Source: Bacteroidales bacterium (GTDB lineage Bacteria > Bacteroidota > Bacteroidia > Bacteroidales > Tenuifilaceae). Taken from it: a stretch of 64,000 nucleotides of DNA. A model generated the notes under the pieces. It was not told where the DNA came from. It did not search any database and saw nothing but the letters and a program-made list of their open reading frames with translations. Location of the stretch: assembly GCA_013141385.1 (NCBI GenBank), contig JABFRB010000002.1:372001-436000 (forward strand), written 5' to 3'. Shown here one piece after another: positions 26,888-53,034 of this stretch; position 1 is the stretch's first letter; every line of letters starts with the position of its first letter. The position numbers were made by a program, and so were the translations under genes.

Positions 26888-26925
26888 TTTATCAATTCGT
26901 ACAAAATGGCGTTCAAATTGACAAA
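26888..26925. promoter_or_regulatory. Palindromic operator between the caspase operon and the AraC gene
   Basis: Half-site TTTATCAATTCGTACA (26888-26903), spacer AAATGG, half-site CGTTCAAATTGACAAA (26910-26925). The first half is identical to the one before the T9SS adhesin; the second matches the palindromic partner at 12 of 16 positions. On the left, a weak -7-like GTTATTTG (minus strand, 26859-26866) lies 21 bp away; on the right a TTTTTTTG (26948-26955) lies 22 bp away. It could serve both divergent genes. The rest of 26810-27143 shows only the palindrome CATGGCAAATAACGCCATG near 26854-26872. Confidence 0.65.
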
Positions 26926-27143
26926 AAACGACATTCAATTCGATTAATTTTTTTGTTTTCTGAGATGATAATAATCAACAAATTTATTTTTCAATCATTT
27001 CACGCTGTGTATCAGCAATATAACAAGCAAAAAACTATTAAAACCGACAATCAAATTGAATAAAGTTTCATAGGAGGGAATAGTAAAGATGACTATTTTA
27101 GCAGCATTGGATAATTACGAGGCTGGATATAATCTTAACTTTT

Positions 27144-28277
27144 ATGAGTTCGAATTTTCATTTTTTAACTAATTCGCTTTTAGTTGTTGTATGTTTGGTA
27201 ATGGGGTCGTCTTTTCTATCGATACCTATACCAAAAAAAGAGGGTTTAAAAAGCTATCGGATATCACTTAAAGTATTGTCTGGAGCATATTTCGCAATGA
27301 GTTTATTAACAATTGCTGTTCTAGCCTTTAATCTTGCCGACAATTCTAGAGAACATTTTACATTTATTAGCATTCTTATATCTTCTTCACAGGCGCTATT
27401 ATTCACTTTTACTCTGATTTCACTGATCAACCCAAATTTCGTTAAACTCAAAAATGTATTTAACCATTTAGTACCATACATTTTATTTCTTAGTCTTTAC
27501 CTTATTTCGAATTCAATATACGATGATCCCAAAATTATCCTATTAAGATCTGTAACTGAAAATGTGAATAACCCAACAATATGGGTTAGAATGCTGTTCT
27601 TAGCATACCTAATTTTTCAGCTAATTTACTATACCTTTCTATTTATCAGGGAGGCAAAAAAGTACGATAATGAATTACTTAATTACTTCTCGGAGGTAGT
27701 TCAGCTAAAAATGAAATGGGTTAGAATCGCATTTTTTTCAGCACTTACTGTAGGCATTATTTCTATGGTTGTAAATTTTTTCCCTAAGCAGTATGATTGG
27801 TTAGCAACATTGCTATTTGCCATTTTTTATTTTGGATTTGCACAGGAGTACATCAAGTACAATAAGATTTTCAGCATTATTGAACCTGCAATACTAGTTG
27901 AAACAATCGAACCTACTCCAATACAGCCTCAGGTTCGTACAAAAGCTGATTGGAAATTCTACAAGCAGCAGATAGTTAGCCATCGCTACTATTGTGAAAT
28001 AGGCATCAATATCGAAGAGATGGCTAGTAAGTTAAATATTGGAAGAACAACCCTTTCTACATATATTAACCGCGAAGAGGGTGTAAATTTTAATACATGG
28101 ATTAATATGCTACGCATTGAGGATGCAAAACATATTCTTATTGATAATCCTGATTATTCCATTGCTATAATCTCCGAAATGGTAGGCTACACAGAGCAAG
28201 CCAATTTTAGCCGGCAGTTTAAGTTGATTACAGGAGAATCACCTTTAGTTTGGCGCAAGAAGTCAGCGGCTTCGTAA
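27144..28277 (+). CDS. Membrane-bound AraC-family transcriptional regulator
   Basis: The product is 377 residues. The first 240 carry six or seven membrane helices (for example SLLVVVCLVMGSSFLSI, VLSGAYFAMSLLTIAVLAF, PYILFLSLYLISNSIY, LATLLFAIFYFGFAQEY), and the last 100 an AraC DNA-binding domain with two helix-turn-helix motifs: IEEMASKLNIGRTTLSTYI and IAIISEMVGYTEQANFSRQF, followed by GESPLVWRKK. Such 7TM-AraC proteins sense a signal in or across the membrane and bind DNA directly. It is divergent from the caspase operon and directly upstream of the T9SS adhesin operon; a palindromic operator stands in both intergenic regions, so it is the best candidate for the protein that binds them. 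A possible -7 box, TATTTTAG, lies at 27094-27101. Confidence 0.88.
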   Translation: MSSNFHFLTNSLLVVVCLVMGSSFLSIPIPKKEGLKSYRISLKVLSGAYFAMSLLTIAVLAFNLADNSREHFTFISILISSSQALLFTFTLISLINPNFVKLKNVFNHLVPYILFLSLYLISNSIYDDPKIILLRSVTENVNNPTIWVRMLFLAYLIFQLIYYTFLFIREAKKYDNELLNYFSEVVQLKMKWVRIAFFSALTVGIISMVVNFFPKQYDWLATLLFAIFYFGFAQEYIKYNKIFSIIEPAILVETIEPTPIQPQVRTKADWKFYKQQIVSHRYYCEIGINIEEMASKLNIGRTTLSTYINREEGVNFNTWINMLRIEDAKHILIDNPDYSIAIISEMVGYTEQANFSRQFKLITGESPLVWRKKSAAS

Positions 28278-28305
28278 ATATTTTCATTCCTCAAATAAAA
28301 TCGTT

Positions 28306-28343
28306 TTTATCAATTCGTACACCACTTTGTATGAATTGATAAA
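28306..28343 (+). promoter_or_regulatory. Palindromic operator of the T9SS adhesin operon
   Basis: Half-site TTTATCAATTCGTACA (28306-28321), spacer CCACTT, half-site TGTATGAATTGATAAA (28328-28343). The two halves are reverse complements at 15 of 16 positions. It ends 20 bp upstream of a consensus -7 box, the place of a class-II activator, and no -33 TTTG is seen at normal spacing. Similar sites are at 26888 and 52997. Confidence 0.75.
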
Positions 28344-28363
28344 TAGTCTTGTTAATGAGAATC

Positions 28364-28371
28364 TATCTTTG
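28364..28371 (+). promoter_or_regulatory. -7 promoter element of the T9SS adhesin operon
   Basis: TATCTTTG is an exact match to TAnnTTTG. It is 20 bp after the operator and 42 bp before the ATG at 28414. Confidence 0.7.
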
Positions 28372-28413
28372 CATGCCTTAAGTCCATCTTTTAAGAAAAA
28401 CACTTAACTTATT

Positions 28414-31400
28414 ATGATACAGTCACAAATCAACTCATCATTTACCCTTATTACTTGGGTATCAAAAGTATTTAAAGCAACTATGCTGGGGGTATTGTTT
28501 CTACTTTTTCCAATGATTAGTAATGCTCAAAATAACTGTCTTTCCTTTGATGGTACAGATGATTATGTAAATCTTGGACCACTTTCACCAACCGGTAACT
28601 TTTCAACAGGGTTTACCTTTATGGGCTGGGTGAAATGGAATGCATTTAACTTTTATGCACCGGTGTTCGTTTTTGGCGATGGTGTTAATAATAGCGACAA
28701 TGCTAATCAAATTTCGATTTCAGGTTACGCTACACTCAATGGTATAAGCGTACGCTGCTCAAATACTAGTTTAATAGTTCAAGGTTGTACAGCATTAAAC
28801 CAATGGGTACATATTGCTGTAACAGTTACAGAGACAGGTAGTATGACTATCTACGTAAACGGATCAAGTGTTTCATGGTATAATGTAAGCCCAATTTCCA
28901 ATGTTGTTCGAACTTCTTGTACTTTAGGAACAGCAACTTATTACAATAAATTTAATGGTTGTTTAGATGAAATCAGCGTATGGTCTCGTGCACTCACCGT
29001 TACTGAGATTCAAAACAAAATGAATTCTTCATTAGCGGGCAATGAAAGTGGATTATATGCCTATTACCATTTCAATCAGGCTGCGCCGGGCGGAACCAAT
29101 ACAGGTTGTACAACTCTTTTGGATGCAGGGGTTAATGCAAAGAATGGTACACTTACAAATTTTGCATTAACTGGCACATCATCTAACTGGCTTTCAAGTG
29201 ATATTCCAGTAACAATCGATAATAATGCTCTTGCATTTGACGGTACAAACGATTATGTAAATTTAGGAACAGTATCCCCAACTGGAAATTTCTCAGCAGG
29301 TTATACCTATATGGGTTGGGTGAAATGGGGCGCATTTAATTCTTGGTCACGACTTTTCGATTTTGGAACAGGTGCTGGCTATAACAATATCATGTTGGCA
29401 AATAATTCAACAAGTAACTCTCTTACATTATCAAATTATTTAAACACAACCCCGTATCAGCTAACCACTGGAAATATTTTAAGTCCGAATCAATGGGTTC
29501 ATGTGGCGGCAACCGTTTCAAATACGGGAGCAGCAAAAATATATGTTAATGGAGTTGTAGCTGCATCCGGAAACGTTTCAGCACCAGTTAATATAGCACG
29601 AAACCTATGTTACTTAGGCAAAAGTAACTGGGTTGCTGATGCCTATTTGAATGCAAGCATGGATGAGGTAAGCTTTTGGACTAGAGCCCTTACAGCAGAT
29701 GAGATTAATACTAATATGAATTCCTCTCTTACTGGTGGGGAAACAGGCCTTTATGCATATTACCGATTTAATCAGGCCTCGGCAAATGGAACAAATACGG
29801 GATTATCAACCCTGTTTGATGCAACGGCTAATGGGAAAAATGGAATACTTACAAATATGTCGTTGTCAGGTATCTCTTCAAATTGGATTTCAAGCGGAGC
29901 TCCTGCATCAACACAAAACAATGCACTCTCTTTTGATGGCACTAACGATTTTGTAGCCATACCAGCATTAGCTAGCAACCTTACACAGTTTACCATCGAA
30001 ACATGGTTTAACGCAAATAACTTTATATCAACTCCTTTCAGCGGAATCTTTAATACAAATAGTTGGGTTAATGGTGATGTTCATTTCCAGTTAACTAACG
30101 CAACGATTCAACTTGCTGTTTGTGGCTCAACTGTTGCAACTGTGAACTATTCCTTTTCGCCAAACACTTGGTATCATCTGGCTGCAACATACAATTCATC
30201 GACTAAAAAAGTAAATGTTTATGTAAATGGTACTTTAGTTCAGAATGTAACCTTAGCTACCGCTTTAAATGCAAATTTCACAGCTGCAGAAATTGGTGCT
30301 TTTGGCGCATCCCGCTACTTTGCTGGGAAGTTGGACGAATATCGGATATGGAACACAGAGAGGACAGCAACCGATATCAGCACTAATATGTACAAATCTT
30401 TTAATGGAACAGAATCAGGATTAATTGCTTATTTTAATTTCAATGAAGGAAATGCTGCTGGGACAAATGCAGGTATAACATCTTTAAATAATGGAATTGG
30501 AACAAACCATGGCACCCTAACCAACTTTGCACTAAGCGGTACAACATCCAACTGGGTAACTGGTATAAAAGATAAACCTAGTAGCCACGTAACCAATTTT
30601 AGTGGTTCTGTGGTTAGTAGCAAAATGACATTAAAATGGACTGATGTCATAAATGGTAATTCTCCCGATGGTTACTATATTTTTGCTTCAAAAACGAACT
30701 CATTTACAGATCCCGTTAACGGTGTAGAACCTTCAATTGACAACGATCTTACCGATGGAGTTGGCGTTGTTAAGGTGCTTCAAGGTGTTCAAGTTTATAA
30801 TGGTTGGATTAACGATGAGCTCAATACTCCCTATTATTTTAGAATTTACCCATATACAAATTCAGGTGTAAATACTTTGTATAACACCATCGCAACTGTA
30901 CCTCAAGTTCAAGTGACTTCTGCAGGGCAATTTTCAATACAAGATGGAATAGCCTTCCCATCTCTTAATTATAGTGCCTTTGCTTGGGGTGATTATGACA
31001 ATGATGGTAATTTAGATTTAATTATGACTGGCGACTCGTCTTCGGTTCCAATAACACGAATATTTAAAGGTAACGGACTTGGTGGCTTTGCACCTCAGTA
31101 TCAAATAAAAATGCAGGGAGTAGAATACGGTTCCGTTGCGTGGGGTGATTATAACAACGATGGATATCTGGATGTTCTTTTAACAGGTTCTACAACATCT
31201 GCTTGGCCTCATACTATGTTCTCTAGGATTTATAAAAATAATAAAAACGGAACATTTACTGAGCAATCTCAAATAGATATTTTCCCAATAAATAACGGCT
31301 CAGCAATTTGGGGTGATTTTGATAACGATGGCGATTTGGATATCCTTTTAGCTGGAAGTGGTGTAGCAAAAATATATAGGAATAATGGCGATAATTCATT

Positions 31401-34400
31401 TACCGATTTAATTTCGTTGATTGGAGTAACTTACGGAGCCGCTACTTGGGGCGATTATGATAATGATGGCTATTTAGATGTTGTTTATTCAGGAATCGGT
31501 AGCGAAGGTAATAGAACCACAAAATTGTATAGAAACAATGGTGATAATACATTTTCGTTACAAACCAATACTGGATTACCAAATTTCTTGGGTCCTGTTG
31601 CGTTGGGTGATTATAATAACGATGGATTACTCGATTTATTTCTTGGTAATTATGATGGCAGCAAGATTTATAAAAATATGGGTAATAATTCCTTTACAGA
31701 ACAAGCATCACTGGCTGCTGCTCAGGAAAATGGTTCTGCTTCGTGGATTGACTATGATAATGATGGTTTTCTTGATATTTTCGTAGCAGGTTATTCAAGT
31801 GGTTATGGCAGCGTTAGCGTAAAACTATACAGAAATACCGATGGCAATACATTTAGCGAGGTTACTCCTCAGTCCTGGCCCACCCTTATAGGTCAAACTT
31901 TTTGGGCTGATTTCGATAATGATAATAGAATAGATTTTTTACTAGGAGGATATGGAAATTCATTCACTGGTTTGTATCACAACAACATAAAAACATTCAA
32001 TACAGCACCACCAACGCCAAGTAATTTGAGTGTTTCCAAGCAGGTTCGGACAGGTACATTTAAATGGGAATATCCAAAGCTAGCAGAATCAGCAAAGTTC
32101 AATTTAAGGGTAGGAACATCTTCTGGATCTTCAAATATAGTAACTGCACAGTCGTTAGCTAATGGTACTCGGTTATTATACAATAACTCAACACTTATCA
32201 GGGATACCTCATTTACTCTTAATCCATTGAAAGTAGGGAACTATTTCTGGTCTGTTCAGGCAGTTGATGCTAATGGAAAAGCAAGCTCTTTTGCTCCAGA
32301 GCAAACCTTTTCAGTTGATACCATTCAATCATCCAATTTGGTAGCCTCCAACGTGAATAGTACAACAATCAAACTAAAGTGGAAACGAGGAAATGGCGAT
32401 GGGTGCATAGTTTTCTGTAAGGCAAATAAATCAACCCCATCTTACCCCGTAAATGGAGTTATTTACAAACACAGCTCCCGTTTTGGTGAAGGTAGTCGAA
32501 TTGCAGGAACCGATTGGTTTTGTGTATACAACGGGCAAGCCGATTCTGTTACAGTTTCGGGCTTAAATACAGGTTTAACGTATACCGTTCATGTAATGGA
32601 GTACTCTACTCTTAGCAATAGCGATAAGTATTTCCGAAAGGTAGTAGATAATAATATTGGGTACTTTAGCCCATCTCTTTATACAGATATACAAACCCTA
32701 GCCTCTGTGGGCGTTTTATATGGTTCTGTGGAATGGGGTGATTATGATAAAGATGGCTACCTTGATATCCTAGTAACTGGCGTCCTCGTTAGTAATCAGT
32801 TTTATGCAAGGGTATACCACAATAATGGTGATAATACATTTACACCCCTTGCCACCTTTAATCTCTTACTTCCCGATAATGCAATCACTCGTTATAATGA
32901 TAGGTTCCTAGGAAAATGGGCTGATTTCGATAACGATGGCTACTTAGATATAGTGATTGTTGATGCTCATAATTACGGAAATGCCAAAATATTACGTAAC
33001 AATACTGACATAAGCGGTACAACATTTACTCAGCAATTTGATTTTGGAAATGATTTTAGCACTGGAACTTGCGAGGATCTAGATAATGATGGCTATTTGG
33101 ATGTTGTTCTTACAGGGGCTAATGATACTAGAATCTATAAAAATAATGGAAATTTTACATTCACCCTTCAAACTACCATCCCTTTTATGACCTATAACTC
33201 GTCCCTTTCGTGTGGCGATTTTAATAACGATGGTTTATCGGATATTTTATTAACGGGATATCATAAGTTAGGTGAATATAACTTTGCTGGTGCATCTAAA
33301 ATATATCAAAACAAAGGGAATTTTGAGTTTGTTGAAAAAACTGATGTTACATTGGAGGGAATATGCTATGGTGTTGGTCAATGGGTAGATTATGATAATG
33401 ATGGTCTTCTCGATATTTTTCTAACTGGCAACCAGCGTTTTAGTGATCCACCATTAACATTGTTATATCACAACGATGGGAATGGAAATTTCACATCTAT
33501 ATCAAATACTGGTATTGGAAGTTTTATGGACTCTAATGCCGATTGGGGCGATTACAATAACGATGGTTATTTAGATCTTATCGTTGGAGGACAGAATGGT
33601 GGCTTGTACACGAAAGTTTATCGTAATAATAAAAATGGCACATTCACTGAAGATACCGATTTTTTTATTACTGGTTGTTTCTACGGTTCTGCAAAATGGT
33701 GTGATTACGATGACGATGGAGATCTTGATATTCTATTCGCAGGAAATAATAATTTAAAAATATACCAAAACACTACTACTTCAATTGCAGGGAAATATGC
33801 TATAAATAAAAAGCCCAATGCGCCTACCAATTTAGAAAATGTTGTAACACCAAATAAGGTTACACTTAGCTGGTCATCAGCACTAAATGATGAAACCCCA
33901 TCAATATCTATGAGTTATAATTTACGTTATAGAATTGTTGGAGCAACAAATTGGAGCTATGCACCGAGCACCAATGGTACTGTAAGGCTATTTAGCGCGT
34001 TAGGAAATGTTCAAATGAACAAACGAATCGACTTAGCCAATCTTCCTGTGGGTCAGTACGAATGGAATGTTCAGACCATTGATCAGGGATATTTGGGTAG
34101 CGATTGGTCTGCAAATGGAAATTTTGAGGTTAGGGATCTTCAAACCTTCTTCTCGGCAGAAATCGTTTGCCAGGGGCTACCTACACAATTTACCGATCAA
34201 TCCGTTTCAACCGATGGTATAGCCTCGTGGAAATGGGATTTCAAGGATGGATCAATTTCAACAGTACAAAATCCTACACACACCTTTGCTGCTGGTGGTG
34301 CTTACACTGTAAAACTTGTAATTACTAGTACTGGAGGTGCAAAGGATTCGCTCGAAAAAAGTGTTACTGTAAAACCTAAACCAATTACAGGATTTACAGC

Positions 34401-36102
34401 AACTACTGCATGCCAAGGAACTTCAACCACAATTACAAATACAACAGATGCTAATGGTTTAACCATTGATTCATGGAGTTGGGACTTTGGCGATGGTCAA
34501 TCATCAACCATTCAGCAACCCTCACCACACGGATATCTTAATACTGGAGATTATCTGGTTAAGCTTAAAGCTATTTCAAGTAATGGTTGTACCGATTCAA
34601 TATCTAAAAATGTAGCAGTGGCAAGTTATCCAATAGCAGCAATCACTGCAAATGCCCCATTATCATTCTGTAAGGGCGATAGCGTAACCCTATCTGTTCC
34701 ATATAATAATAAATTTATTTACACGTGGAAGGTTGACGGAACTAATCTTACTAATTCTGATTCAAGTAAATACATAGCCAAGTTGACAGGTAATTATGTT
34801 GTGGAAGTTGTTAATTCAATTGGAAATTGTACAACTTTATCATCTCAAGTAAATATCATTGCGCAAAATGCACCTGTAGTTCCACTAATCACTGCAAATG
34901 GCTCATTACAATTCTGTCAGGATGAATCGGTTACTCTTAGCGCAACAAACGTTGATGGTTACACCTATCAATGGAATTTGAATGGTGGTGCGGTTGGAGA
35001 AAATTCGAACCAGTATATTGCAAAAGATAAAGGAAAATACTCCTTAACTGTGGCTAATTCGAACGGCTGCTCTGTGAACTCAACCAACTCCTTAGATGTA
35101 GATGTACTTCCTAAACCAACCCTTCCAATTTTGAACCTAAGCGGGCCAACTAGTTTCTGCTCAGGGGGAAGTGTTACGCTTAACGCAACATCAAATTCAG
35201 AGTACACTTATAGATGGAAGAATGAGCTCGGTGTAATTAGCGGAGCAAATACAAACTCGCTAATAGCATCAACATCAGGAAAATATCAACTTGAGATATC
35301 CAATACTCAAGGATGCTCGGTGATAACCCCAGTGGTAAATGTTACAGCTAATACATTACCCGCCAAACCTATTATTGCCGAAGCAACTAACACCACGCTG
35401 TACTGTTTAGGCACCGAAGTTGAGCTTAAGGTTACAAACTCCTCATCAACGCTAAACTATCAGTGGAAACGATCGGGCGTAATTGTAGATGGAGCAACCC
35501 AATCAAACTATAAAGGTCGTCTAGCAGCGGGCGATTACCGAGTTGAGGCAAGTCAGGGTAACTGCGCTACAGAATCCGATATTATCACTCTAACCACCAA
35601 ACCTGCACCCGCTAAGCCTAATTTATATGCATGGGGTCCCAACGTTTGGATTCTTGCGTGTGATAATAATTCGGCTAAAGATTATCGCTGGTATTATAAC
35701 GATCAACTCATTGTTGGTGCAAAGACTAATCAATACGTTGCCAGACAAAACTTTGGCAATTACTACGTAGAAATCAGCGATGGTGGCGAGTGCTACGCCA
35801 TGAGCGATATAATAAATATCCCAACGGGCAATGTTATTAATGGAATTGACGATCTTGTTGACGATGTGGTAACCCTATTTCCAAACCCAACAGATGGGCT
35901 AATTACAGTACTATTGGGCAATACGCTCTCAGGCGATTTGAATGTTGAATTTGTGGACGATTTAGGTAAAGTTATTATCCAAAATCAATATCATAATTCA
36001 AATGGATTTTCTATTGATCTTACTGGAGCACCTAAAGGAATATACTTCTGTAAGTTACATTATAAGAACAGTTTAGTTGTAAAGAAAATTATTAAACAGT
36101 AG
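28414..36102 (+). CDS. Giant T9SS-secreted adhesin: LamG x3, FG-GAP/VCBS 7+7, PKD, Ig-like, sorting domain
   Basis: The product is 2562 residues. A signal peptide (to about residue 38) is followed by three LamG-type lectin domains (about 40-220, 270-450, 500-690; the first two are near duplicates beginning FDGTxDYVNLG), a fibronectin-type segment, then seven FG-GAP/VCBS motifs of the form WGDYDNDGYLD (about 855-1185), two more fibronectin-like segments, seven further FG-GAP motifs (about 1438-1785), two PKD domains (WDFKDGS, WDFGDGQ; about 1915-2075), several Ig-like repeats opening FCxGxSVTLxA, and a type A T9SS sorting domain (LFPNPTDGLITV...GIYFCKLHYKN) at the end. It should be exported by Sec, passed through T9SS and held on the cell surface, where LamG and propeller modules suggest binding of glycans or host/particle ligands. 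First gene of a four-gene operon controlled by the operator at 28306. Confidence 0.92.
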   Translation: MIQSQINSSFTLITWVSKVFKATMLGVLFLLFPMISNAQNNCLSFDGTDDYVNLGPLSPTGNFSTGFTFMGWVKWNAFNFYAPVFVFGDGVNNSDNANQISISGYATLNGISVRCSNTSLIVQGCTALNQWVHIAVTVTETGSMTIYVNGSSVSWYNVSPISNVVRTSCTLGTATYYNKFNGCLDEISVWSRALTVTEIQNKMNSSLAGNESGLYAYYHFNQAAPGGTNTGCTTLLDAGVNAKNGTLTNFALTGTSSNWLSSDIPVTIDNNALAFDGTNDYVNLGTVSPTGNFSAGYTYMGWVKWGAFNSWSRLFDFGTGAGYNNIMLANNSTSNSLTLSNYLNTTPYQLTTGNILSPNQWVHVAATVSNTGAAKIYVNGVVAASGNVSAPVNIARNLCYLGKSNWVADAYLNASMDEVSFWTRALTADEINTNMNSSLTGGETGLYAYYRFNQASANGTNTGLSTLFDATANGKNGILTNMSLSGISSNWISSGAPASTQNNALSFDGTNDFVAIPALASNLTQFTIETWFNANNFISTPFSGIFNTNSWVNGDVHFQLTNATIQLAVCGSTVATVNYSFSPNTWYHLAATYNSSTKKVNVYVNGTLVQNVTLATALNANFTAAEIGAFGASRYFAGKLDEYRIWNTERTATDISTNMYKSFNGTESGLIAYFNFNEGNAAGTNAGITSLNNGIGTNHGTLTNFALSGTTSNWVTGIKDKPSSHVTNFSGSVVSSKMTLKWTDVINGNSPDGYYIFASKTNSFTDPVNGVEPSIDNDLTDGVGVVKVLQGVQVYNGWINDELNTPYYFRIYPYTNSGVNTLYNTIATVPQVQVTSAGQFSIQDGIAFPSLNYSAFAWGDYDNDGNLDLIMTGDSSSVPITRIFKGNGLGGFAPQYQIKMQGVEYGSVAWGDYNNDGYLDVLLTGSTTSAWPHTMFSRIYKNNKNGTFTEQSQIDIFPINNGSAIWGDFDNDGDLDILLAGSGVAKIYRNNGDNSFTDLISLIGVTYGAATWGDYDNDGYLDVVYSGIGSEGNRTTKLYRNNGDNTFSLQTNTGLPNFLGPVALGDYNNDGLLDLFLGNYDGSKIYKNMGNNSFTEQASLAAAQENGSASWIDYDNDGFLDIFVAGYSSGYGSVSVKLYRNTDGNTFSEVTPQSWPTLIGQTFWADFDNDNRIDFLLGGYGNSFTGLYHNNIKTFNTAPPTPSNLSVSKQVRTGTFKWEYPKLAESAKFNLRVGTSSGSSNIVTAQSLANGTRLLYNNSTLIRDTSFTLNPLKVGNYFWSVQAVDANGKASSFAPEQTFSVDTIQSSNLVASNVNSTTIKLKWKRGNGDGCIVFCKANKSTPSYPVNGVIYKHSSRFGEGSRIAGTDWFCVYNGQADSVTVSGLNTGLTYTVHVMEYSTLSNSDKYFRKVVDNNIGYFSPSLYTDIQTLASVGVLYGSVEWGDYDKDGYLDILVTGVLVSNQFYARVYHNNGDNTFTPLATFNLLLPDNAITRYNDRFLGKWADFDNDGYLDIVIVDAHNYGNAKILRNNTDISGTTFTQQFDFGNDFSTGTCEDLDNDGYLDVVLTGANDTRIYKNNGNFTFTLQTTIPFMTYNSSLSCGDFNNDGLSDILLTGYHKLGEYNFAGASKIYQNKGNFEFVEKTDVTLEGICYGVGQWVDYDNDGLLDIFLTGNQRFSDPPLTLLYHNDGNGNFTSISNTGIGSFMDSNADWGDYNNDGYLDLIVGGQNGGLYTKVYRNNKNGTFTEDTDFFITGCFYGSAKWCDYDDDGDLDILFAGNNNLKIYQNTTTSIAGKYAINKKPNAPTNLENVVTPNKVTLSWSSALNDETPSISMSYNLRYRIVGATNWSYAPSTNGTVRLFSALGNVQMNKRIDLANLPVGQYEWNVQTIDQGYLGSDWSANGNFEVRDLQTFFSAEIVCQGLPTQFTDQSVSTDGIASWKWDFKDGSISTVQNPTHTFAAGGAYTVKLVITSTGGAKDSLEKSVTVKPKPITGFTATTACQGTSTTITNTTDANGLTIDSWSWDFGDGQSSTIQQPSPHGYLNTGDYLVKLKAISSNGCTDSISKNVAVASYPIAAITANAPLSFCKGDSVTLSVPYNNKFIYTWKVDGTNLTNSDSSKYIAKLTGNYVVEVVNSIGNCTTLSSQVNIIAQNAPVVPLITANGSLQFCQDESVTLSATNVDGYTYQWNLNGGAVGENSNQYIAKDKGKYSLTVANSNGCSVNSTNSLDVDVLPKPTLPILNLSGPTSFCSGGSVTLNATSNSEYTYRWKNELGVISGANTNSLIASTSGKYQLEISNTQGCSVITPVVNVTANTLPAKPIIAEATNTTLYCLGTEVELKVTNSSSTLNYQWKRSGVIVDGATQSNYKGRLAAGDYRVEASQGNCATESDIITLTTKPAPAKPNLYAWGPNVWILACDNNSAKDYRWYYNDQLIVGAKTNQYVARQNFGNYYVEISDGGECYAMSDIINIPTGNVINGIDDLVDDVVTLFPNPTDGLITVLLGNTLSGDLNVEFVDDLGKVIIQNQYHNSNGFSIDLTGAPKGIYFCKLHYKNSLVVKKIIKQ

Positions 36103-36114
36103 GCCTTTATTCAG

Positions 36115-38037
36115 ATGATTATGAGATACGTGCAATTGTTGAAAAGAAGAGTAATTCTCACAATATGTTTAGTGCTAATTGGAGGATATGCAATTTCGGC
36201 CGATTTTACCGATAAGCAAAAGGCTATTATTTATAACGAAGCAATTAAAGCCCTTAAAAACTATCAGCTATACACCAATCAATTGGCTGATCAAGTAGTT
36301 GATTTGGTTGAACTTAACAAAACGAGCCAAAAACTGATTGACCTATTCGTTAGCCGCAAGGCTATTGTTTACAACGATCTCGATCCTGCCCACAAATTAA
36401 GCGATGTTTATGAGATGGAAACCTATCTTGCAAACCTATTGCTTTGGTATCCCGATGGGATGAAGATCTCCTTGGATTTTGATAACCTTAAGGCAGGAAA
36501 TATCATTTCGCATGGGAACGATATCTACACCGTTGATATTATGACCTCAAAGCGCATTGATGGCAACTACCTAAATCAGCAAAGAAATAACCTTACAGAG
36601 GAATTGCTTTACCGTATTGCATTCTTTCAGAAGAACAACGCATTCGAAAACTATAGGATTGCCGGTATTAGGAGCAATAAAACAAAAACGCTTGCCGATG
36701 ATTCAAGGCTACTTGCAGAGGTTAAAAGCATCACCTTTTCCGAAAAGGATATGCAGTTGATTAAGGAGCAGACAAAATTCTTGCTGAATGACTATATCAA
36801 TTTCCTAAACCTACTAACCGATCCCAAGGAGAGCCGTGAGGATAAAACCTATTACAGCATCTCATTTATGGGGCTATTCAAGGATTCAACCCAAAATGTA
36901 GCAAACGATATTGAACCAGATCCACAAAAAAGATGGGTGCCATTAAGCGATTACAAGAAAAACATCGTTTCATCGTACCCAGAGGGTATTCGTAATCTTG
37001 GACTGAATATCGATTCGGCTCAGTACGGGAAAGTAATACCCGAGGGGAACGAGAAGTATTACATTAACGGGTATATCGATAAGTTTTTCTCGGGGAAATA
37101 CATGGCAAAAACGGTATTCCGCGATAACGCAAAGTACGACTTCAAGGTATCGTTCGAGCGTGATGAAAACACCTTTAAGAATTTTAAGCTTACAAGTATC
37201 GATAAATTTGGGGTTAACCTTTATAGCCAAACTGCTGCCAATGCCACGCAGGAGTTACCCAGCAAGCCCATTTCAACACTTAAAAGAAGCGGTTTATATG
37301 TAGGTTTCTCAGTGGGTGGTGGGATTGCAAGTCTTAAAGATCCTAATTTAACCGATAATAAAATACTTTCGTGGTCGGTTAAGGGAAAAAGCACAATAAA
37401 CCTTCATGCAATAGCTACTTGGTATTTTCACGAGAGGTTGGGGGTTTCAATGGGTCTTGGCTACACTAAATTCAGCGCAAATGCTAATCTCTCAGGGGAT
37501 TTTCGGAACACAGCATACTCCACCGATTTGAATAATGAATCCTACCTAAAAAATGTTTCCGCAAAATACGACTCCCTCCTAACCGTTAACTGCATATCTA
37601 TCCCCATAACATTGATATTCCATAGCAATAGCAATCCTGAGAAATGGGGTATTTATGCCGAAACAGGCTTGGTTGCTTCGTTAAATATTAAGTCCAACTT
37701 CCATACAACAGGTAACTTTGCAACATCGGGCTACTACGAGCAACACCCTGTTCAGATTATCACTGCGCCTGAATTTGGCTTTGTTAGCCGCTCTAATATC
37801 GACAGTAAAGGGAAAAGCGATATTGCAGGTTTTAATTTATCATTTAAAACTTCTGTAGGCTTTACCTATCCTATTAGTTATTTTACAACAGTTTATGTTG
37901 GCCCTGAAATTATTTGGGGTTTGAATAACCTATCAAAGGCAAGTGAGTATACCGATGCTTTTGGAAATGCATCCTCGGCAAAAAAGGTTGTAAGTTCAAA
38001 ATATGGTATTAAGTTTGGATTATCATACAAATTCTAG
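36115..38037 (+). CDS. Outer membrane beta-barrel protein with N-terminal helical/NTF2-like domains
   Basis: The product is 640 residues. The ATG at 36115 and another two codons later (36121) both precede the signal peptide. Residues 30-390 form one or two alpha/beta domains; the stretch SEKDMQLIKEQTKFLLNDY followed by LFKDSTQNV resembles SDADIEVFKEQTKQKVDEF and LFFKGAEMQ in the next gene product, so a domain family seems to be shared. From about 400 on, strands such as SGLYVGFSVGGGIASL, GVSMGLGYTKFSANANL and KYGIKFGLSYKF (terminal Phe) indicate an outer-membrane barrel of eight or more strands. It starts 12 bp after the adhesin, so it may help that protein at the outer membrane, as SprF/PorP-like proteins do for other T9SS substrates; this role is inferred. 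Confidence 0.75.
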   Translation: MIMRYVQLLKRRVILTICLVLIGGYAISADFTDKQKAIIYNEAIKALKNYQLYTNQLADQVVDLVELNKTSQKLIDLFVSRKAIVYNDLDPAHKLSDVYEMETYLANLLLWYPDGMKISLDFDNLKAGNIISHGNDIYTVDIMTSKRIDGNYLNQQRNNLTEELLYRIAFFQKNNAFENYRIAGIRSNKTKTLADDSRLLAEVKSITFSEKDMQLIKEQTKFLLNDYINFLNLLTDPKESREDKTYYSISFMGLFKDSTQNVANDIEPDPQKRWVPLSDYKKNIVSSYPEGIRNLGLNIDSAQYGKVIPEGNEKYYINGYIDKFFSGKYMAKTVFRDNAKYDFKVSFERDENTFKNFKLTSIDKFGVNLYSQTAANATQELPSKPISTLKRSGLYVGFSVGGGIASLKDPNLTDNKILSWSVKGKSTINLHAIATWYFHERLGVSMGLGYTKFSANANLSGDFRNTAYSTDLNNESYLKNVSAKYDSLLTVNCISIPITLIFHSNSNPEKWGIYAETGLVASLNIKSNFHTTGNFATSGYYEQHPVQIITAPEFGFVSRSNIDSKGKSDIAGFNLSFKTSVGFTYPISYFTTVYVGPEIIWGLNNLSKASEYTDAFGNASSAKKVVSSKYGIKFGLSYKF

Positions 38038-38055: not shown

Positions 38056-38685
38056 ATGAATATGAGATACGTATTGATTATTATTTTTTGTGGCATCCTT
38101 ACCAATTCCTACTCTCAGGAGCCCTCAAAAACTGCTGCAAGTAGCAAGGAGGCAAAGATTGTTGATGAGATAAATCTTTCCGATGCCGATATCGAGGTTT
38201 TCAAAGAGCAAACAAAGCAGAAGGTTGATGAGTTCCAGCAGCATATTGTTACAATTGGTAGTAAGGATCAACCTGCCGAAAGACGCAGTATGGCTGAAAG
38301 GGAGGCGCTAAAGCTCTTCTTCAAAGGTGCAGAGATGCAAACATCCGTTATTATGCCCGATGGCACAGTAACCATCCAATCGCGCCCAATGGAAAAATAT
38401 CTTGCTCGGTTAAAATCGCTGCCATTTACATCTGTTGTTATCAAATTCTACGACTTAGTTTACATATCAAGCTTTACTAAGGGTCCCGATGGTCGATACT
38501 ACTCATCGGCAACGGTTATTCAAGAATTCACTGGTTTCACTGGCGATAATCTTGTATACAAAGATGTAACCAAAAAGGAGATTGAAATTGTAATAGATCT
38601 AGTTGAAGATAAATTCTTTAACGAGAAAAAATGGAAAGTATTCCTTGGTAACATCAAAGCAACCGAAACCAAGAAGTCATTGTAA
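38056..38685 (+). CDS. Exported NTF2-like protein of unknown function
   Basis: The product is 209 residues with a signal peptide (MNMRYVLIIIFCGILTNSYS). An initial helical segment (SDADIEVFKEQTKQKVDEF) is followed by a region with strands and a hydrophobic core (SVVIKFYDLVYISSFTK, YYSSATVIQEFTGF, EIEIVIDLVEDKFF, WKVFLGNIKAT) that could adopt an NTF2/SnoaL-like cone fold; this is a guess from pattern. It resembles part of the N-terminal region of the preceding barrel protein. The gene lies 18 bp after the barrel gene and overlaps the next by one base, so it belongs to the adhesin operon. Periplasmic or surface location is expected. Confidence 0.6.
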   Translation: MNMRYVLIIIFCGILTNSYSQEPSKTAASSKEAKIVDEINLSDADIEVFKEQTKQKVDEFQQHIVTIGSKDQPAERRSMAEREALKLFFKGAEMQTSVIMPDGTVTIQSRPMEKYLARLKSLPFTSVVIKFYDLVYISSFTKGPDGRYYSSATVIQEFTGFTGDNLVYKDVTKKEIEIVIDLVEDKFFNEKKWKVFLGNIKATETKKSL

Positions 38686-39470
38686 TGAGCAGGATAAGGC
38701 TAATTGCGCTATTTACATTACTCATTGGGAGTAATCTTATCTCCTTTGGGCAGCAAATTCAAGGTTCATCCCTTAGCACCCCAAAGGAGTATTACCTTCA
38801 GGTAAAGCAGTTTGGTGAGTTTATCGATAGGTTCAACTACAAATCCGATTGGAAAGGAAACCTAATTAGCGATGAGTTTAAAAAGAAGATATCCCGAACC
38901 AGCTACCTTGCATATCTTCTAAATGCCGAAGATCCAAGGCTTAGCAATTCTACCGACTCTTCATACAGGAAAATTTGCAGCGAATTCATTGAATACATTG
39001 CAGATTCTATGGCTCCCAAAACAATTAGCCTTTACAGCGGGCAGGTTAAAGCGTTGGCTAAAGTTAATATTACCTACAACGGGAAAGATAATCAGGTTAA
39101 TATGGAGCTGATCCCCGAAGTACTCTCAGACAGATCAGTCAAATGGGTAATATCTAATATTGATACGGATGTATTCAAATTTAACCCCGATAGCCTACAG
39201 AAGTACTTTATTGCGCCCAACAGCCACGAAACCAATTTTATAAACATCCGAAAACTGAATAGCACAAACAATCCCTATTACTTTACATCAACATCGTTGA
39301 CCAAAACCATTCTTTTTTTGAAAGAGGTAGAGCAAAAACGGATAACCATTCAAAACACCCAAAGCGTTACCTACTATATCAACTTTCCGGGCTGGCAAAT
39401 CACCGTTGAGGAATTCAACAGAACATCAAACAACTCGGGATGGCTAATTAGTGATATTAGAAAGATTTAA
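38685..39470 (+). CDS. Exported protein of unknown function, last gene of the adhesin operon
   Basis: The product is 261 residues with a signal peptide (IALFTLLIGSNLISFGQQ). The ATG shares its A with the TAA of the previous gene, which indicates translational coupling. The mature part begins with a helical section (PKEYYLQVKQFGEFIDRF) and continues with strands (VKALAKVNITYNGKDNQVNM, VKWVISNIDTDVF, VTYYINFPGWQITVEEF, SGWLISDIRKI). The layout is like the neighbouring exported protein and the N-terminal part of the barrel protein, suggesting three related periplasmic modules in one operon. No family recognised. Confidence 0.6.
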   Translation: MSRIRLIALFTLLIGSNLISFGQQIQGSSLSTPKEYYLQVKQFGEFIDRFNYKSDWKGNLISDEFKKKISRTSYLAYLLNAEDPRLSNSTDSSYRKICSEFIEYIADSMAPKTISLYSGQVKALAKVNITYNGKDNQVNMELIPEVLSDRSVKWVISNIDTDVFKFNPDSLQKYFIAPNSHETNFINIRKLNSTNNPYYFTSTSLTKTILFLKEVEQKRITIQNTQSVTYYINFPGWQITVEEFNRTSNNSGWLISDIRKI

Positions 39471-44726: not shown

Positions 44727-44798
44727 AACCGATTGTGCAAAAACCGTAAATTAGGAAATATGCTTTTGTTAAACCTGTTTTGGTTAGAATATTTCAAG

Positions 44799-44948: not shown

Positions 44949-45040
44949 TTTGGATTAAACTACACCAGCTAAATGTAGTTTCTATAAAAGAACTATTTTT
45001 ATCCAATAAATTCTGTTGTGAACATTAAACCTTGCATAAT

Positions 45041-46647: not shown

Positions 46648-46892
46648 GAAAAAATCTCTATACAAATCTCTTGATTAACTCTTCAGTCGTGAATTCGCTT
46701 TACTTAGTTCTGTTCTTCAGTTCAGTCGTTTATTGTTTGGCCTAATTACCTTCGTTAGTCGGGCTCTCCCCTTGGCCGGGCTAGAGCCTTGTTCTCTCAA
46801 AACCACTTTGCTAGTTACCAGTCCTTAAGGAATTCGCAACTAATTGTAAGGTGCTTTTATCCTTAAGTTTGCTCCTCCACTTTAAATAACTT

Positions 46893-47783: not shown

Positions 47784-48897
47784 AAACACCTCTAATACAG
47801 CGACTTGTACATGAATACGTACAAAATACTAAAACTTGGTAAGAACACTTCTTCTAACAAATCAATCATTTTTTCTGCTGACAATAAATGGGAAATGCAA
47901 AGTTGAACACCAAATGAAATGAGTAACATGCGTAAAAAATTATCAATAGCCTACTGCTAGATTACCCTGAAAAAATAAAATGAATTTCCGTGAATAATGA
48001 ACTATTAATATCGTTTTAGTAGTATGGTGCAAAAGTGCAAAATTTGAACATTAGGCCTCACTTTAATATTTAAAATTTATTGAACAATAGTATTTTGATA
48101 ACTCCCAATAATTGTAATGTTTGTAAATGCTAGCAGTCATTTCAAGAATCGGTTTTAAGCTCAGCAAAAAAACTGAGATTAACGGTAGAAACATTTGGCC
48201 AAATTACTTACAGTTGCTTTTAACAGTTTTATTTGCAGCACATTGCACAACACAGGCATATGTAAATTTTGCATAATTTGATAAATAGAACAATATAAAC
48301 TATATGAACCCTATTGTTTACAAAGCCTATCACCCAAAAAGGAAAACTAGTAATTGCTATGTATATTCATAGCGTCCAAAATAAATCTATTAAAATGTTC
48401 ATCTTTTTACTTATTGTAACTCGGGTACATTATTTTTCAATTGCCTATAAAATTGCTACAGAAAGCTGGACTTATTCGGGATTTCCAACTAAACAAAATT
48501 AGTTTGTACTTATTACTATGAATTAGGATTTTAATAAAAAGTATTTTCGCAAATTCAAGCAAATTAAAAAATTGGTAACTTTGGATTTCTATATGCACCG
48601 CTTTGACAATTGGCTCAAAATACTTGCACAAATGGTAATTACAAAACAATTAAATGAGTTTAATTATTGGAGGATTTATCATATTTTCACATTTCTTACA
48701 ACACCCATAGCTGTTTAATTTTTATTACAATCTTTAGAAAATTTGCAATTGTTTTTCTATGTGCCTTTGCTTTCAACGGATACAAAAAACTTTCTTCGAA
48801 AAGTTTCCTCAATCAAAAAGTATTTATAGATAAAGCGCAAACATTTTTGGGAATAAACTTACTTAACTACATTCATCGATTATTAAAAGGATAAAAC
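47784..48897. other. Gene-poor stretch of 1.1 kb
   Basis: No convincing gene was found on either strand. Short frames exist (for example 47810-47905 and 48667-48894) but lack homology that I recognise and good starts. There is a small hairpin CTCAG/CTGAG at about 48160-48178. The sequence is very AT-rich and may be decayed accessory DNA. Confidence 0.4.
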
Positions 48898-49353
48898 ATG
48901 AAAAAAGCTATTCTAATAACCACAATTATCGCAGGTTCCTTAGATATTTCCGCTGCGTTTATTCAAAGCTATTTTATGTATAACGTTATGCCCTCAGGAG
49001 TATTGCAATTTATTAGCAGCGGTATTTTAGGAAGTGCGGCTTATTCAGGAGGGTTTGGTATAATTGCATTAGGATTACTTGTGCACTATTTAATTGCCTT
49101 GTCGTGCACAGCTTGTTTCTTTTGGCTATATCCCAAATGGCGTATTTTCAACCTAAGTATTTGGCTTAATAGTGTATTAATAGCTCTAATTACATGGGTG
49201 GTTACTTCTCAAATTATAGTTCCATTGAGCAGGATAAAACACAGAAATTTTGATGTTCATAAAGCATTCATAGCTTTAACAATCTTAGTAATTTGTATAG
49301 GTATTCCAATAGCTTACTTTGCCAAAAAATACTACGAACAAAAAGATCAATAA
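48898..49353 (+). CDS. Small four-helix membrane protein
   Basis: The product is 151 residues with four hydrophobic segments: AILITTIIAGSLDISAAFI, FGIIALGLLVHYLIALSCTA, WLNSVLIALITWVVTSQII and FIALTILVICIGIPIAYF. It resembles a frequent but uncharacterised inner-membrane family that starts with (I)AGxLDI(S/L)AAF and has SSGxxGxxAxSGG between helices 1 and 2; I cannot give a function. The amylase gene begins 31 bp later, so they may be co-transcribed, but a functional tie is not evident. Confidence 0.7.
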   Translation: MKKAILITTIIAGSLDISAAFIQSYFMYNVMPSGVLQFISSGILGSAAYSGGFGIIALGLLVHYLIALSCTACFFWLYPKWRIFNLSIWLNSVLIALITWVVTSQIIVPLSRIKHRNFDVHKAFIALTILVICIGIPIAYFAKKYYEQKDQ

Positions 49354-49384
49354 AAACTTTTAAAAAGTGTAAACCAATAATTCA

Positions 49385-51232
49385 ATGAAAAAGGTATTAT
49401 TTACTTTAACATTTTTACTGGCAAAAACTATAGTTTTTACTCAAACCATTGAACGCATTGAACCCAATAGCTGGTGGGTTGGAATGAAGTATAACACCAT
49501 AACATTGTTGGTTTATGGGAATAAAATTTCTGATTTGCAACCAGCAATTTCTTATCCCAACGTTCAATTGATAAAAACTGATACCGTTGAAAACAAAAAT
49601 TACCTTTTTATCACGCTTAAAATAAATGCTTCTGCAATACCCGGTATTGCTAAAATAACTTTCAATAAAAAGGGTAAGGTTTTAATAACAAAGGACTTTC
49701 AAATCTTACAGCGTGAAAAAAACAGCGAAAAAAGAGAAAGCTATACACAAAAGGATGCAATCTATCTTATTGTACCAGATAGATTTGCTAATGGCGACAA
49801 GACAAACGACAATGTTCCTTCACTTCTAGAAAATTCTTCGGATAGAAAAGGTGAAGGCAAAAGGCATGGTGGGGATATTCAAGGAATTATAAACAACTTA
49901 GGCTATATTCAATCTTTAGGTCTCACTCAAATTTGGTGTACGCCTTTGATTGAAAATAATGAGCCCGAATACTCATACCATGGATATGCAGCTACGGATT
50001 TTTATAAAATTGACCCGCGATTTGGCACAAATGAACTCTTTAGACAATTGGTCCAAGAAGCTAAAAAGAAAGGCATAGGGTTGATTTGGGATGTTGTTTT
50101 AAACCATTGTGGAACTGAATACTATTTTATAAAAGATTTACCATCAAAAAATTGGGTTAATTTTCCCGACAAGTATAGGCGTTCTAACTTCTTAAAAACA
50201 ACATTAACTGATACCTATGCCACAGAAATTGACAAAAAGGAATATACCGATGGTTGGTTCGATAGTTGTATGGCCGATTTAAACCAGCGAAATCCTTTTC
50301 TGGCTAAATTTTTAATTCAGAATACTATTTGGTGGATAGAGTATGCAGGCCTCTCGGGTTTAAGGGAGGACACCTATTCTTACGCCGATAAAGACTTTTT
50401 ATCGCAATGGGCAAAAACTATTCTTGAGGAATACCCCAAATTTAATATAGTAGGCGAAGAAATGACAAGGATTGTATCGCAAGTAGCTTATTGGCAAAAA
50501 GGTAAGCAAAACTTTGATGGCTATACATCCTATTTACCCACCCTAATGGATTTTTTGTTAAATGATAATGTTGTTTCTAGCTTAACCAGATCAAATGATT
50601 GGTTTTCGGCATGGAGAGATATATACCAGTGTGTTGCACAAGATTATCAATTCCCTAATCCAGAAAATCAGTTAATATTTCCAGATAACCACGATTTGGA
50701 TAGATTTTATACAAGGTTGAATAAAAAATTTGACCATTGGAAACTTGGTATTGCTATATATATGACCATGCGGGGCATTCCTCAATTTTGTTATGGTACA
50801 GAAGTTTTGATGACCAATGATAAATTAGGAAATGATGGACTTCGTAGAGGCGACTTTTATGGAGGATGGGATGGAGACACCAAAAATGCTATAACAGGTA
50901 TTGGCCTTACGGAAGAAGAAAAATGTGCAAAAGAGTATTTCTCTAAATTACTTTCTTGGCGAAAAACAAATTCCGCTATCACAAATGGCAAATTTATTCA
51001 TTACGCCCCTCAACAAAATGATGTTTATGTATACTTTAGGTATAATGATAAACAAAAAGTAATGATCATTCTAAATAAAAACAGCGAAAATGTTACACTT
51101 GATATTAAAAGGTACTCTCAAATGATATCAAGCAAATTCAAAGCAAAAGAGATAATTTGCGATAAAGAATTTATTGTGGAAGACTCTTTAATAATTCCAT
51201 CTAAAACTGCAATGATATTGGAAATAAAATAA
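49385..51232 (+). CDS. Secreted alpha-amylase family glycoside hydrolase (GH13, neopullulanase/SusA-like)
   Basis: The product is 615 residues with a signal peptide (to about FTQ at 20). Residues 22-115 form the N-terminal cyclomaltodextrinase-type beta domain (IEPNSWWVGMKYNTITLLVY). The GH13 barrel follows, with region I DVVLNH, nucleophile Asp329 in GLREDTYSY, acid/base Glu358 in IVGEEM and region IV DNHD (434-437). All catalytic residues are present. It hydrolyses alpha-glucans such as starch, pullulan or cyclodextrins in the periplasm or at the surface. Unlike typical loci in this phylum, no SusC/SusD pair is next to it. The last 80 residues form the usual C-terminal beta domain. Confidence 0.92.
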   Translation: MKKVLFTLTFLLAKTIVFTQTIERIEPNSWWVGMKYNTITLLVYGNKISDLQPAISYPNVQLIKTDTVENKNYLFITLKINASAIPGIAKITFNKKGKVLITKDFQILQREKNSEKRESYTQKDAIYLIVPDRFANGDKTNDNVPSLLENSSDRKGEGKRHGGDIQGIINNLGYIQSLGLTQIWCTPLIENNEPEYSYHGYAATDFYKIDPRFGTNELFRQLVQEAKKKGIGLIWDVVLNHCGTEYYFIKDLPSKNWVNFPDKYRRSNFLKTTLTDTYATEIDKKEYTDGWFDSCMADLNQRNPFLAKFLIQNTIWWIEYAGLSGLREDTYSYADKDFLSQWAKTILEEYPKFNIVGEEMTRIVSQVAYWQKGKQNFDGYTSYLPTLMDFLLNDNVVSSLTRSNDWFSAWRDIYQCVAQDYQFPNPENQLIFPDNHDLDRFYTRLNKKFDHWKLGIAIYMTMRGIPQFCYGTEVLMTNDKLGNDGLRRGDFYGGWDGDTKNAITGIGLTEEEKCAKEYFSKLLSWRKTNSAITNGKFIHYAPQQNDVYVYFRYNDKQKVMIILNKNSENVTLDIKRYSQMISSKFKAKEIICDKEFIVEDSLIIPSKTAMILEIK

Positions 51233-51990
51233 CGTTAGCTCAATGTAAACATAACATATTGATTCTAAGCATAGTATTTGATTGCTGCTCTGTTATGCTG
51301 AGCGAAGTGAAATCCAGAGGATTCGCTGAAAGCAACCATCTAGTTTTTAGATAATTATATCCTTCGCTTCGCTCATAACCGAGCTGCCATTTCGGCGCAG
51401 CCAATGACACCTTAAATCGACTCACGTTAATTAAATATATCATTAAAAAGGAAGGATTTAGCGATCATTTAAGTCCTATTCTAGCTAGCTGGTTAAAATA
51501 TCGTGCTATGACTATCATTGTTGTTTGGGCATTGTCAATTTTAATTTCCCTTATTTTCCCTATCATTTCGAGATTTTTTTCCTTCTTATATTTATTTTAC
51601 AGTATTATATTGACAGGCATTTCAGAAAGGAACAAAAGAAGCACAAAAATTAAAAATAGACGAAAAGGGTTTCTTCGACTTCACTTCTAAATCGAATCTT
51701 TCATCGGGCTTGTGACTGAGATTGGCTAAAAATGTAAAACTTGTTTGGTAATTTTCTATTTCATATCAAACTCTTTACTAAGTATGTTTTGTCTTCTAGT
51801 GCAGTTGATGCAAATGTGCTACCCTTAAGTTAGTTTTTAGCAGATAAAAAAATCTACAGTAAACTAGCATCTACTGCTCAAACTTTAGTAATTTTAGCAA
51901 CAAGCCAATGAAAAATAACTTTTTCTGTTATAGGCGCAATTATTTATATTGGAAAACAAATTTTTGAAAATATTTCTAAAACGTTTTAAT
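51233..51990. other. Non-coding stretch of 760 bp
   Basis: Contains repeat-like GCTGAGCGAAGTG (about 51298) and CTTCGCTTCGCTC (51362-51374) strings that are common in intergenic DNA of this phylum. A hydrophobic 60-codon frame at 51508-51690 has no recognisable homology. No promoter or terminator is evident. Confidence 0.4.
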
Positions 51991-52767
51991 ATGAAAATTT
52001 TTGCTAAAAGTAAATATTATCTACTTTTCTCGGTTTTACCAATTGTAATAATTTTTGGTGGTCTTAAAGTTGGAGTTCACTTGCTTGGTTGGGAAGTTAT
52101 TCCCAAGGAGATGACTTCTTTTTTTCCAAGTATTTTGACAGGAATTATCTTTTTACTTGGCTTTCTATTAGCAGGTGTGGTTACTGATTATAAGGAAAGC
52201 GAGAAAATACCAAATGAGTTAGCCGCTTCTCTATATACCCTTTGGCATGAAGTTGAATATGTAAAGCATGTATCAAATTCGAAGTACGCTGAAAATTTGA
52301 AATCAAAGATTAAAAACTTTATTCCAACTTTAAAGAGAGATTATTTTGTATTACGAAATGATAATTTGGAAAAGCTGCTAGATTCGTTTTCATCTGATAT
52401 TATAGATATGGGCAAAGAGGGCGTTCCGCCAAATTATATCGTTAGAATGAAAAGTGAAATAACTACGCTTAAGAAAACCATTAATCGAATATCAATAATT
52501 AAAAGCACCGATTTCGTACCCTCTGTTTTTATTTCAATAAATACAATTGCTGTAATATTTCTAATTGTTTATTGTTTGCTTAGCGTTGAACCATGGTGGG
52601 TAGGAGTTGTACTTGTGAGCATTTTCACTTTTATAATTTTCTCTATACTTTTCTTGATAAAAGATATGGACGATCCGTTTGAATACGATGAAAGTGACGA
52701 TGTAAAATCAGACGAAGTTAGCCTTGAAGTTCTTGATAATTTGCAAAAGGAATTCAAAGACAAATGA
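51991..52767 (+). CDS. Bestrophin-like (DUF4239-type) membrane protein
   Basis: The product is 258 residues from the ATG at 51991; an in-frame TTG further upstream adds 14 residues. Two hydrophobic segments near the N-terminus (YYLLFSVLPIVIIFGGLKV, SILTGIIFLLGFLLAGVV), a soluble helical middle, and two near the C-terminus (FISINTIAVIFLIVYCLL, VGVVLVSIFTFIIFSILFLI) give the bestrophin-like layout, ending in an acidic tail (DDPFEYDESDDVKSDE). Relatives may be ion channels, but this is not shown for the bacterial branch. Single gene followed by a strong terminator. Confidence 0.65.
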   Translation: MKIFAKSKYYLLFSVLPIVIIFGGLKVGVHLLGWEVIPKEMTSFFPSILTGIIFLLGFLLAGVVTDYKESEKIPNELAASLYTLWHEVEYVKHVSNSKYAENLKSKIKNFIPTLKRDYFVLRNDNLEKLLDSFSSDIIDMGKEGVPPNYIVRMKSEITTLKKTINRISIIKSTDFVPSVFISINTIAVIFLIVYCLLSVEPWWVGVVLVSIFTFIIFSILFLIKDMDDPFEYDESDDVKSDEVSLEVLDNLQKEFKDK

Positions 52768-52804
52768 TTTAAAAGGAATGACTTTTGATTAAAAACTTCT
52801 TGTT

Positions 52805-52837
52805 CGGCTTAGGCGTAAAGTCTAAGCCGTTTTTTTT
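52805..52837 (+). terminator. Rho-independent terminator
   Basis: CGGCTTAG (52805-52812) pairs with CTAAGCCG (52822-52829), followed by eight T. It ends transcription of the bestrophin-like gene, 37 bp after its stop. Confidence 0.85.
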
Positions 52838-52996
52838 GCTTGTATCTAAGATATAAACTCATCTAACAATTTCTTATAAAAAATTCGAAGGCTTTGAGCC
52901 ACAAGAACAACCTTTGATAGAATACATTGGCATGCAATAGTTCAGTAATACCTATTTTTATTTTCTTCAAAAATACATTAATCAAAAAAACATGTT

Positions 52997-53034
52997 TTTG
53001 TCTAATCGTACGTTAATTTGTACGAATCGATAAA
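52997..53034 (+). promoter_or_regulatory. Palindromic operator of the second T9SS protein
   Basis: Half-site TTTGTCTAATCGTACG (52997-53012), spacer TTAATT, half-site TGTACGAATCGATAAA (53019-53034). The right half differs from the adhesin operator's right half at two positions; the left half matches its own palindromic partner at 12 of 16. It ends 21 bp before a -7-like CACTTTTG, the same geometry as at 28306. Confidence 0.7.

Follow-up and report, generated by a model that had tools for sequence, protein, structure and literature searches.

The 64,000-nucleotide window considered here, meaning the whole stretch analysed (positions 372,001 to 436,000 of contig JABFRB010000002.1, assembly GCA_013141385.1, from a Bacteroidales bacterium of the Tenuifilaceae), encodes a predicted membrane-anchored regulator of AraC type and contains three related palindromic sequences. 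Two of these flank the regulator gene, and the third precedes a gene for a second putative cargo protein of the type IX secretion system (T9SS). The sites and the genes next to them are listed below, with distances in base pairs (bp).
26888..26925, no strand assigned: site 1, putative operator between the caspase operon and the araC gene, with its strong half on the caspase side
28306..28343, no strand assigned: site 2, putative operator of the giant T9SS gene, between the regulator gene and the surface gene
52997..53034, no strand assigned: site 3, putative operator of the second T9SS gene
27144..28277, + strand: regulator with a C-terminal HTH_18 domain and seven predicted membrane helices (Pfam HTH_18, E=1.4e-17; AlphaFold2 model)
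24792..26648, - strand: caspase (Peptidase_C14, E=6.7e-21) with a signal-peptide-like start and SGHG and DACFSG motifs
21555..24788, - strand: Reg_prop/Y_Y_Y/SpoIIE protein (propeller sensor and phosphatase domain), 3 bp after the caspase gene
28414..36102, + strand: 2562-residue surface protein with FG-GAP, Laminin_G_3, PKD and Por_Secre_tail domains
53301..56720, + strand: 1139-residue surface protein with DUF5018 and Por_Secre_tail domains, preceded by site 3

These identities agree with those proposed in the initial annotation of the sequence, namely Peptidase_C14, HTH_18 and two proteins with Por_Secre_tail. The HTH_18 domain of the regulator scores 64.2 bits against a cut-off of 33.6, as expected of the C-terminal domain of the AraC/XylS family, and none of the other genes scanned in the conserved block encodes a protein that matches a DNA-binding family. 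Its N-terminal part has no Pfam domain; in place of a soluble sensor or dimerisation domain, an AlphaFold2 model built from 10 sequences predicts seven long helices followed by the helix-turn-helix (HTH) domain, with a mean predicted local distance difference test score (pLDDT) of 74.9 and a predicted template modelling score (pTM) of 0.52. A Foldseek search at E<=0.001 returned two matches, both of them HTH domains, and comparisons of the helix bundle with animal seven-helix receptors gave E values above 0.1, which are uninformative by themselves. The charges of the loops weakly favour a cytoplasmic C terminus. The SGHG and DACFSG motifs of the caspase presumably hold the catalytic His and Cys residues. 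The Reg_prop/Y_Y_Y/SpoIIE protein has a signal-peptide-like start and a hydrophobic stretch ahead of its SpoIIE part, and the two surface proteins both carry the Por_Secre_tail that we used to recognize T9SS cargo.

Each site is an imperfect palindrome of 38 bp, in which a 6-bp spacer separates two 16-bp arms, and all three were found where the initial annotation had placed them. Neither the arms nor the spacers are the same among them. The shared plan proposed there holds as a consensus but not to the letter, since sites 1, 2 and 3 depart from it by 4, 1 and 5 mismatches, respectively; a search with that plan at up to 3 mismatches recovered site 2 alone, for a chance expectation of 0.00. We also used a degenerate pattern derived from the three sites. 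At up to 3 mismatches it matched exactly sites 1 to 3 in the 5,547,406 bases of the genome, and its reversed control gave no match. Finding those three is by construction; the absence of others is not, and the random scatter through the 5.55-Mb genome that would have counted against operators was not seen at this threshold. A looser pattern added two places in the same genome, against one for the control. Judged only by its palindromy, site 1 does not exceed chance (12/16 pairs in the best alignment, reached by 14/50 shuffles), and its weight comes from its match to the other sites.

To describe the architecture of the sites we assembled 26 copies from 11 genomes, comprising this one and the relatives presented below; 15 copies face surface genes and 11 face caspase genes, and a lone half-site at L061 (13577) was excluded. 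Eleven of the 26 were obtained by a matrix scan of the same neighbourhoods and lie below the strict threshold. The spacer is 6 bp long in 21/26 copies and 7 bp in 5/26: the constant six-base spacer that had been claimed is true of the three window sites and is otherwise the rule, but it is not universal. Candidate promoter boxes lie next to the window sites at the distances that had been announced (20, 21, 21 and 22 bp).
28364..28371, + strand: -7 box TATCTTTG, gap of 20 bp after site 2
53056..53063, + strand: -7-like box CACTTTTG, gap of 21 bp after site 3
26859..26866, - strand: weak -7-like box GTTATTTG, oriented toward the caspase gene at a gap of 21 bp from site 1; relatives share its TTTG
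26948-26955: box TTTTTTTG, on the araC side of site 1, gap of 22 bp

We scored each box by the number of letters matched out of 6 in TAnnTTTG. At the surface genes, a box of at least 5/6 starts 20-21 bp past the site in 14/15 copies, eight of which have 6/6; the copy without a box belongs to the second locus of G007. Only 11.3% of random places at most 600 bp away reach at least 5/6. The predicted position of the promoter boxes is thus conserved before the surface genes. The boxes said to flank site 1 fared unequally: on the caspase side, TTTG is found at a gap of 20-21 bp in 9/11 copies, but on the araC side this is the case in 0/11, the mean score (3.45) equals that of the background (3.45), and scores of at least 5 occur in 2/11. 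G000 and G002 have an araC-facing box of 5/6 at a gap of 19 bp. Autoregulation of araC through site 1 is unsupported, with araC-facing boxes at background level and no conserved box. At the seventh base past the site (28350 and 53041 in the window), around -26, a T is near-invariant in 21 aligned copies (1.72 bits), before surface and caspase genes alike.

TAnnTTTG covers positions -12 to -5 in Flavobacterium (PMC9723704), and the consensus of B. fragilis has an additional TTTG near -33 (PMC7366714). With these positions and the spacing of the -7 boxes, the end of the site falls at about -33 and the near half spans about -48 to -33, so that it would occupy the place of the -33 element. No TTTG is present at the -33 place at window sites 2 and 3, as might be expected of activator-dependent promoters. 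The same regulator could instead act at these operators as a repressor that blocks the polymerase until a signal is received. The near half lies directly against the promoter, where it might obstruct the polymerase, but the site stops at about -33 and leaves the -7 box and the start uncovered, and the missing TTTG again suits an activator better. We regard repression as unlikely, although it is the most serious of the alternatives.

We then compared the sites in 27 genomes of the family, this one included. Regulator orthologs were found in seven others, at 92, 75, 69, 68, 67, 67 and 55% identity. The pattern is present in 7/8 ortholog genomes (own included) and in 0/19 genomes without an ortholog (Fisher 9e-6, ignoring relatedness). 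Conservation in related genomes, which had been put forward as a test, thus goes together with that of the regulator. Each of the 15 family matches (15/15) is placed where a caspase gene or a large surface-protein gene begins; in G011, G013 and the second locus of G007, the mechanically called frame overlaps the site and the true start is uncertain. In the eighth ortholog genome, G007, weaker copies with one strong half are found at the same places. A scan of one genome per species over 84,980 species, which was not exhaustive as it missed G007, yielded nine loci, six of them apparently among those already seen. The three new regulator loci, L061 (from a metagenome-assembled genome of the Salinivirgaceae), L062 and L063, are at 51, 51 and 48% identity, and they have weaker copies before the caspase gene and before a large surface gene. 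In G011, L061 and L062, unrelated genes separate the regulator gene from the surface gene, and the site is still directly before the surface gene. The intervening genes are AAA_14/DUF4143 genes in two loci, and alginate-export-like, chemoreceptor and other genes in the third. The AAA_14/DUF4143 genes (L051:10585-11835 and L061:12246-13502) belong to two distant genomes and perhaps mark a repeated insertion spot.

One relative, G022, lacks both the regulator gene and scoring sites. Its phosphatase gene, caspase gene (~70% identity) and a gene with FG-GAP, PKD and T9SS-tail domains stand side by side, the regulator gene is gone from between them, and no scoring site was found in the 20-kb stretch around the caspase and surface genes. 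This genome bears on the idea that a protein encoded elsewhere binds the sites and that the AraC-type gene is merely linked to them. Sites and gene adjoin, and could for that reason have been inherited together; nevertheless, the pattern is absent from all 19 family genomes without an ortholog, G022 keeps the caspase, phosphatase and surface genes while regulator and sites are both missing, and the scanned genes of the block offer no further DNA-binding match. Binding by another protein is thus very improbable.

The half-sites are unequal, and the promoter-near half is the conserved one. Compared with TTTRTCRATTYRTACA, the near half departs on average by 0.60 letters at surface genes and 0.73 at caspase genes, and the far half by 1.73 and 3.82, respectively. 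On the target-facing strand, G.T outnumbers A.C among the mismatches between half-sites, 31 to 8 for surface genes and 33 to 7 for caspase genes; in the far half, position 4 is preferentially G and position 11 often T, and the near half has A and C instead. We read this bias as a sign of unequal half-sites. It also resembles the wobble pairing of an RNA hairpin, which at site 2, just downstream of araC, could form the end of the araC message. However, the same bias exists at the caspase-facing copies, where no transcript is expected in that direction, pairing with wobble included reaches only 10-11/16 in several copies, the far half is rich in transversions (20 and 29), and the distance from site to -7 box is kept, all of which make a hairpin highly improbable. 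The idea that a short repeat, mobile or duplicated, was copied to the three places and has no regulatory role can be dismissed almost entirely: G003 does have letter-identical copies and elements resembling miniature inverted-repeat transposable elements (MITEs) exist in this genome, but spacers and arms differ among the window sites, the genome has no further copy, and the placement before promoters is conserved between genomes.

Taken together, the sequences of the sites, their uniqueness, conservation and placement, and their joint loss with the regulator gene in one relative indicate that they are probably operators of the adjacent membrane-anchored AraC-type activator, forming a compact local regulon of exported proteins. 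A 'compact surface-protein regulon' had been suggested in the initial annotation, and this description fits. From the arrangement we infer that the protein binds the sites as a dimer, that it activates rather than represses, and that its membrane domain acts as a sensor. A dimer of the regulator, still held in the membrane, would bind the two 16-bp half-sites, the centres of which are 22 bp, or two helical turns, apart. The near half would substitute for the -33 element, and the most likely effect of the protein is to activate promoters in which a -7 box is present and a -33 box is absent. The operon for the exported caspase and the propeller-phosphatase would thereby be switched jointly with the giant T9SS surface protein and its downstream partners, and in this genome the second T9SS protein, behind site 3, would have been added to the regulon. 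The genome has 54 Por_Secre_tail matches over the cut-off, and at the strict threshold only the two window genes have a site. None of the seven other ortholog genomes has a full-length ortholog of the gene that follows site 3; this gene apparently entered the regulon in recent times. A role of the caspase and the phosphatase in signalling or in the processing of surface proteins is possible.

Several observations weigh against this interpretation. The seven helices are predicted from a shallow alignment, and a plain hydropathy count gives five segments. The caspase-facing boxes are weak, with a mean of 4.18/6 against a background of 3.45, at least 5 letters in 3/11 copies and a poor TA part. 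The G007 copies, with their 7-bp spacer, fall outside the strict pattern. As the genomes are related, the counts are not independent. Lastly, a T9SS tail is found in 5/7 complete frames scanned behind surface-gene sites (the other 8/15 targets are cut or were not scanned), and it is missing from the remaining 2/7, a 719-residue gene product of G003 and an 812-residue frame of G018.

Proteins of all three kinds involved, namely AraC-type regulators, membrane one-component regulators and T9SS cargo, have been described before. Activators of the AraC/XylS family have their site next to the promoter, and many, though not all, have a soluble N-terminal ligand-binding or dimerisation domain. The regulator resembles members of this family (AraC, Rns, YesN, AraT) in the HTH_18 domain at its C terminus, which both Pfam and matches to solved domains identify, and differs from them by its predicted seven-helix membrane part in place of a soluble N-terminal sensor. 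In Bacteroides, hybrid two-component systems unite a Reg_prop/Y_Y_Y sensor, a histidine kinase, a receiver and an HTH_AraC domain in one protein. The propeller here is found on the neighbouring SpoIIE protein, and one of the solved structures related to the HTH domain carries the name of a hybrid two-component system protein; however, neither the regulator nor the SpoIIE protein has a kinase or receiver match, and the sensor and DNA-binding parts are encoded by separate genes. With ToxR, TcpP, CadC and Vibrio TfoS the regulator shares a predicted membrane-held state. TfoS is termed a transmembrane transcriptional regulator, and appears as an AraC family regulator in a strain table (PMC7564644). 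ToxR-like proteins have an N-terminal winged HTH, one membrane helix and a C-terminal periplasmic domain (PMC5936718), whereas several helices, seven as predicted, come first here and HTH_18 is at the C terminus.

In the titles and opening lines of abstracts of the open-licence papers that were listed, we found no description of this locus, operator or regulator, nor of a seven-helix AraC-type regulator paired with a conserved operator of its own and with such targets. A predicted regulator of this kind gains a defined putative operator, promoters and a target list, with a natural regulator-less relative as a control. Activation without a -33 box by a membrane-held AraC-type protein, the signal of the membrane domain and the reason why an exported caspase would be co-controlled with surface proteins can now be addressed by experiment. 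A more ambitious proposal, which we judge somewhat less likely than not, is that a seven-helix, receptor-like protein relays a signal from the envelope or the outside to DNA from within the membrane, by way of an operator that is strictly palindromic and stands in for the -33 element. It would couple the exported caspase and the propeller-phosphatase sensor to giant surface proteins, and new ones might join by gaining an operator, as for site 3 and in G003.

Three further genes follow the giant surface gene.
36115..38037, + strand: 640-residue protein with a signal-peptide-like start and no family match, which follows the surface gene in relatives too
38056..38685, + strand: 209-residue protein with a signal-peptide-like start and no family match
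38685..39470, + strand: 261-residue protein with a signal-peptide-like start and no family match
The three products have no Pfam or NCBIfam match, and their signal-peptide-like starts were judged by eye. The model of the 36115-38037 protein is unusable (mean pLDDT 28.8). A reading of the locus as a defence system was rejected: PADLOC matches the caspase domain alone and 0/5 other proteins scanned.

Searches beyond the locus gave no wider regulon. We read the lone near half-sites with at most 1 mismatch that lie away from the known sites in G000 (5/5), G002 (3/3) and G022 (1/1); none of the nine is accompanied, at the appropriate spacing, by a second half or a -7 box, and 4/5 of those in G000 are inside open frames. 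We thus rejected the notion of a larger regulon built on them. Among the 393 genomes of the order, 7/387 outside the family have a single match apiece, with 3 mismatches, against 3/393 for the reversed control. Four of these matches are inside open frames of at least 680 residues and three are not; the seven genomes have no close regulator ortholog, and in two of them a 25-26% match lies on a different contig from the site. We took these sites as chance matches. The 31 flanks of 16 related membrane AraC-type loci, scanned for palindromes, follow no common rule; palindromes that beat all 50 shuffles were found in four (L012, L014, L025 and L030), with differing sequences and spacers. That of L030 (G016), a 15/16 palindrome with a 3-bp spacer and another sequence, lies 55 bp past the AraC-type gene and is possibly an analogous operator.

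Mobile or duplicated sequences were noted at several of these loci. In G007, a second copy of the regulator is split by an IS1595-type transposase gene (L055:7058-9216), beside a large gene that has a site with a 7-bp spacer. The two letter-identical sites of G003 are 2.8 kb apart (L049:3326-3363 and L049:6105-6142), each before a different large gene. In the window, a MITE-like insert of ~150 bp with inverted ends AAATGTCCAT lies at about 26649-26805, between the promoter and the start codon of the caspase gene, and is not present in G002; 101 of its bases match nine places of the genome including itself, one of them at 63935-64000.

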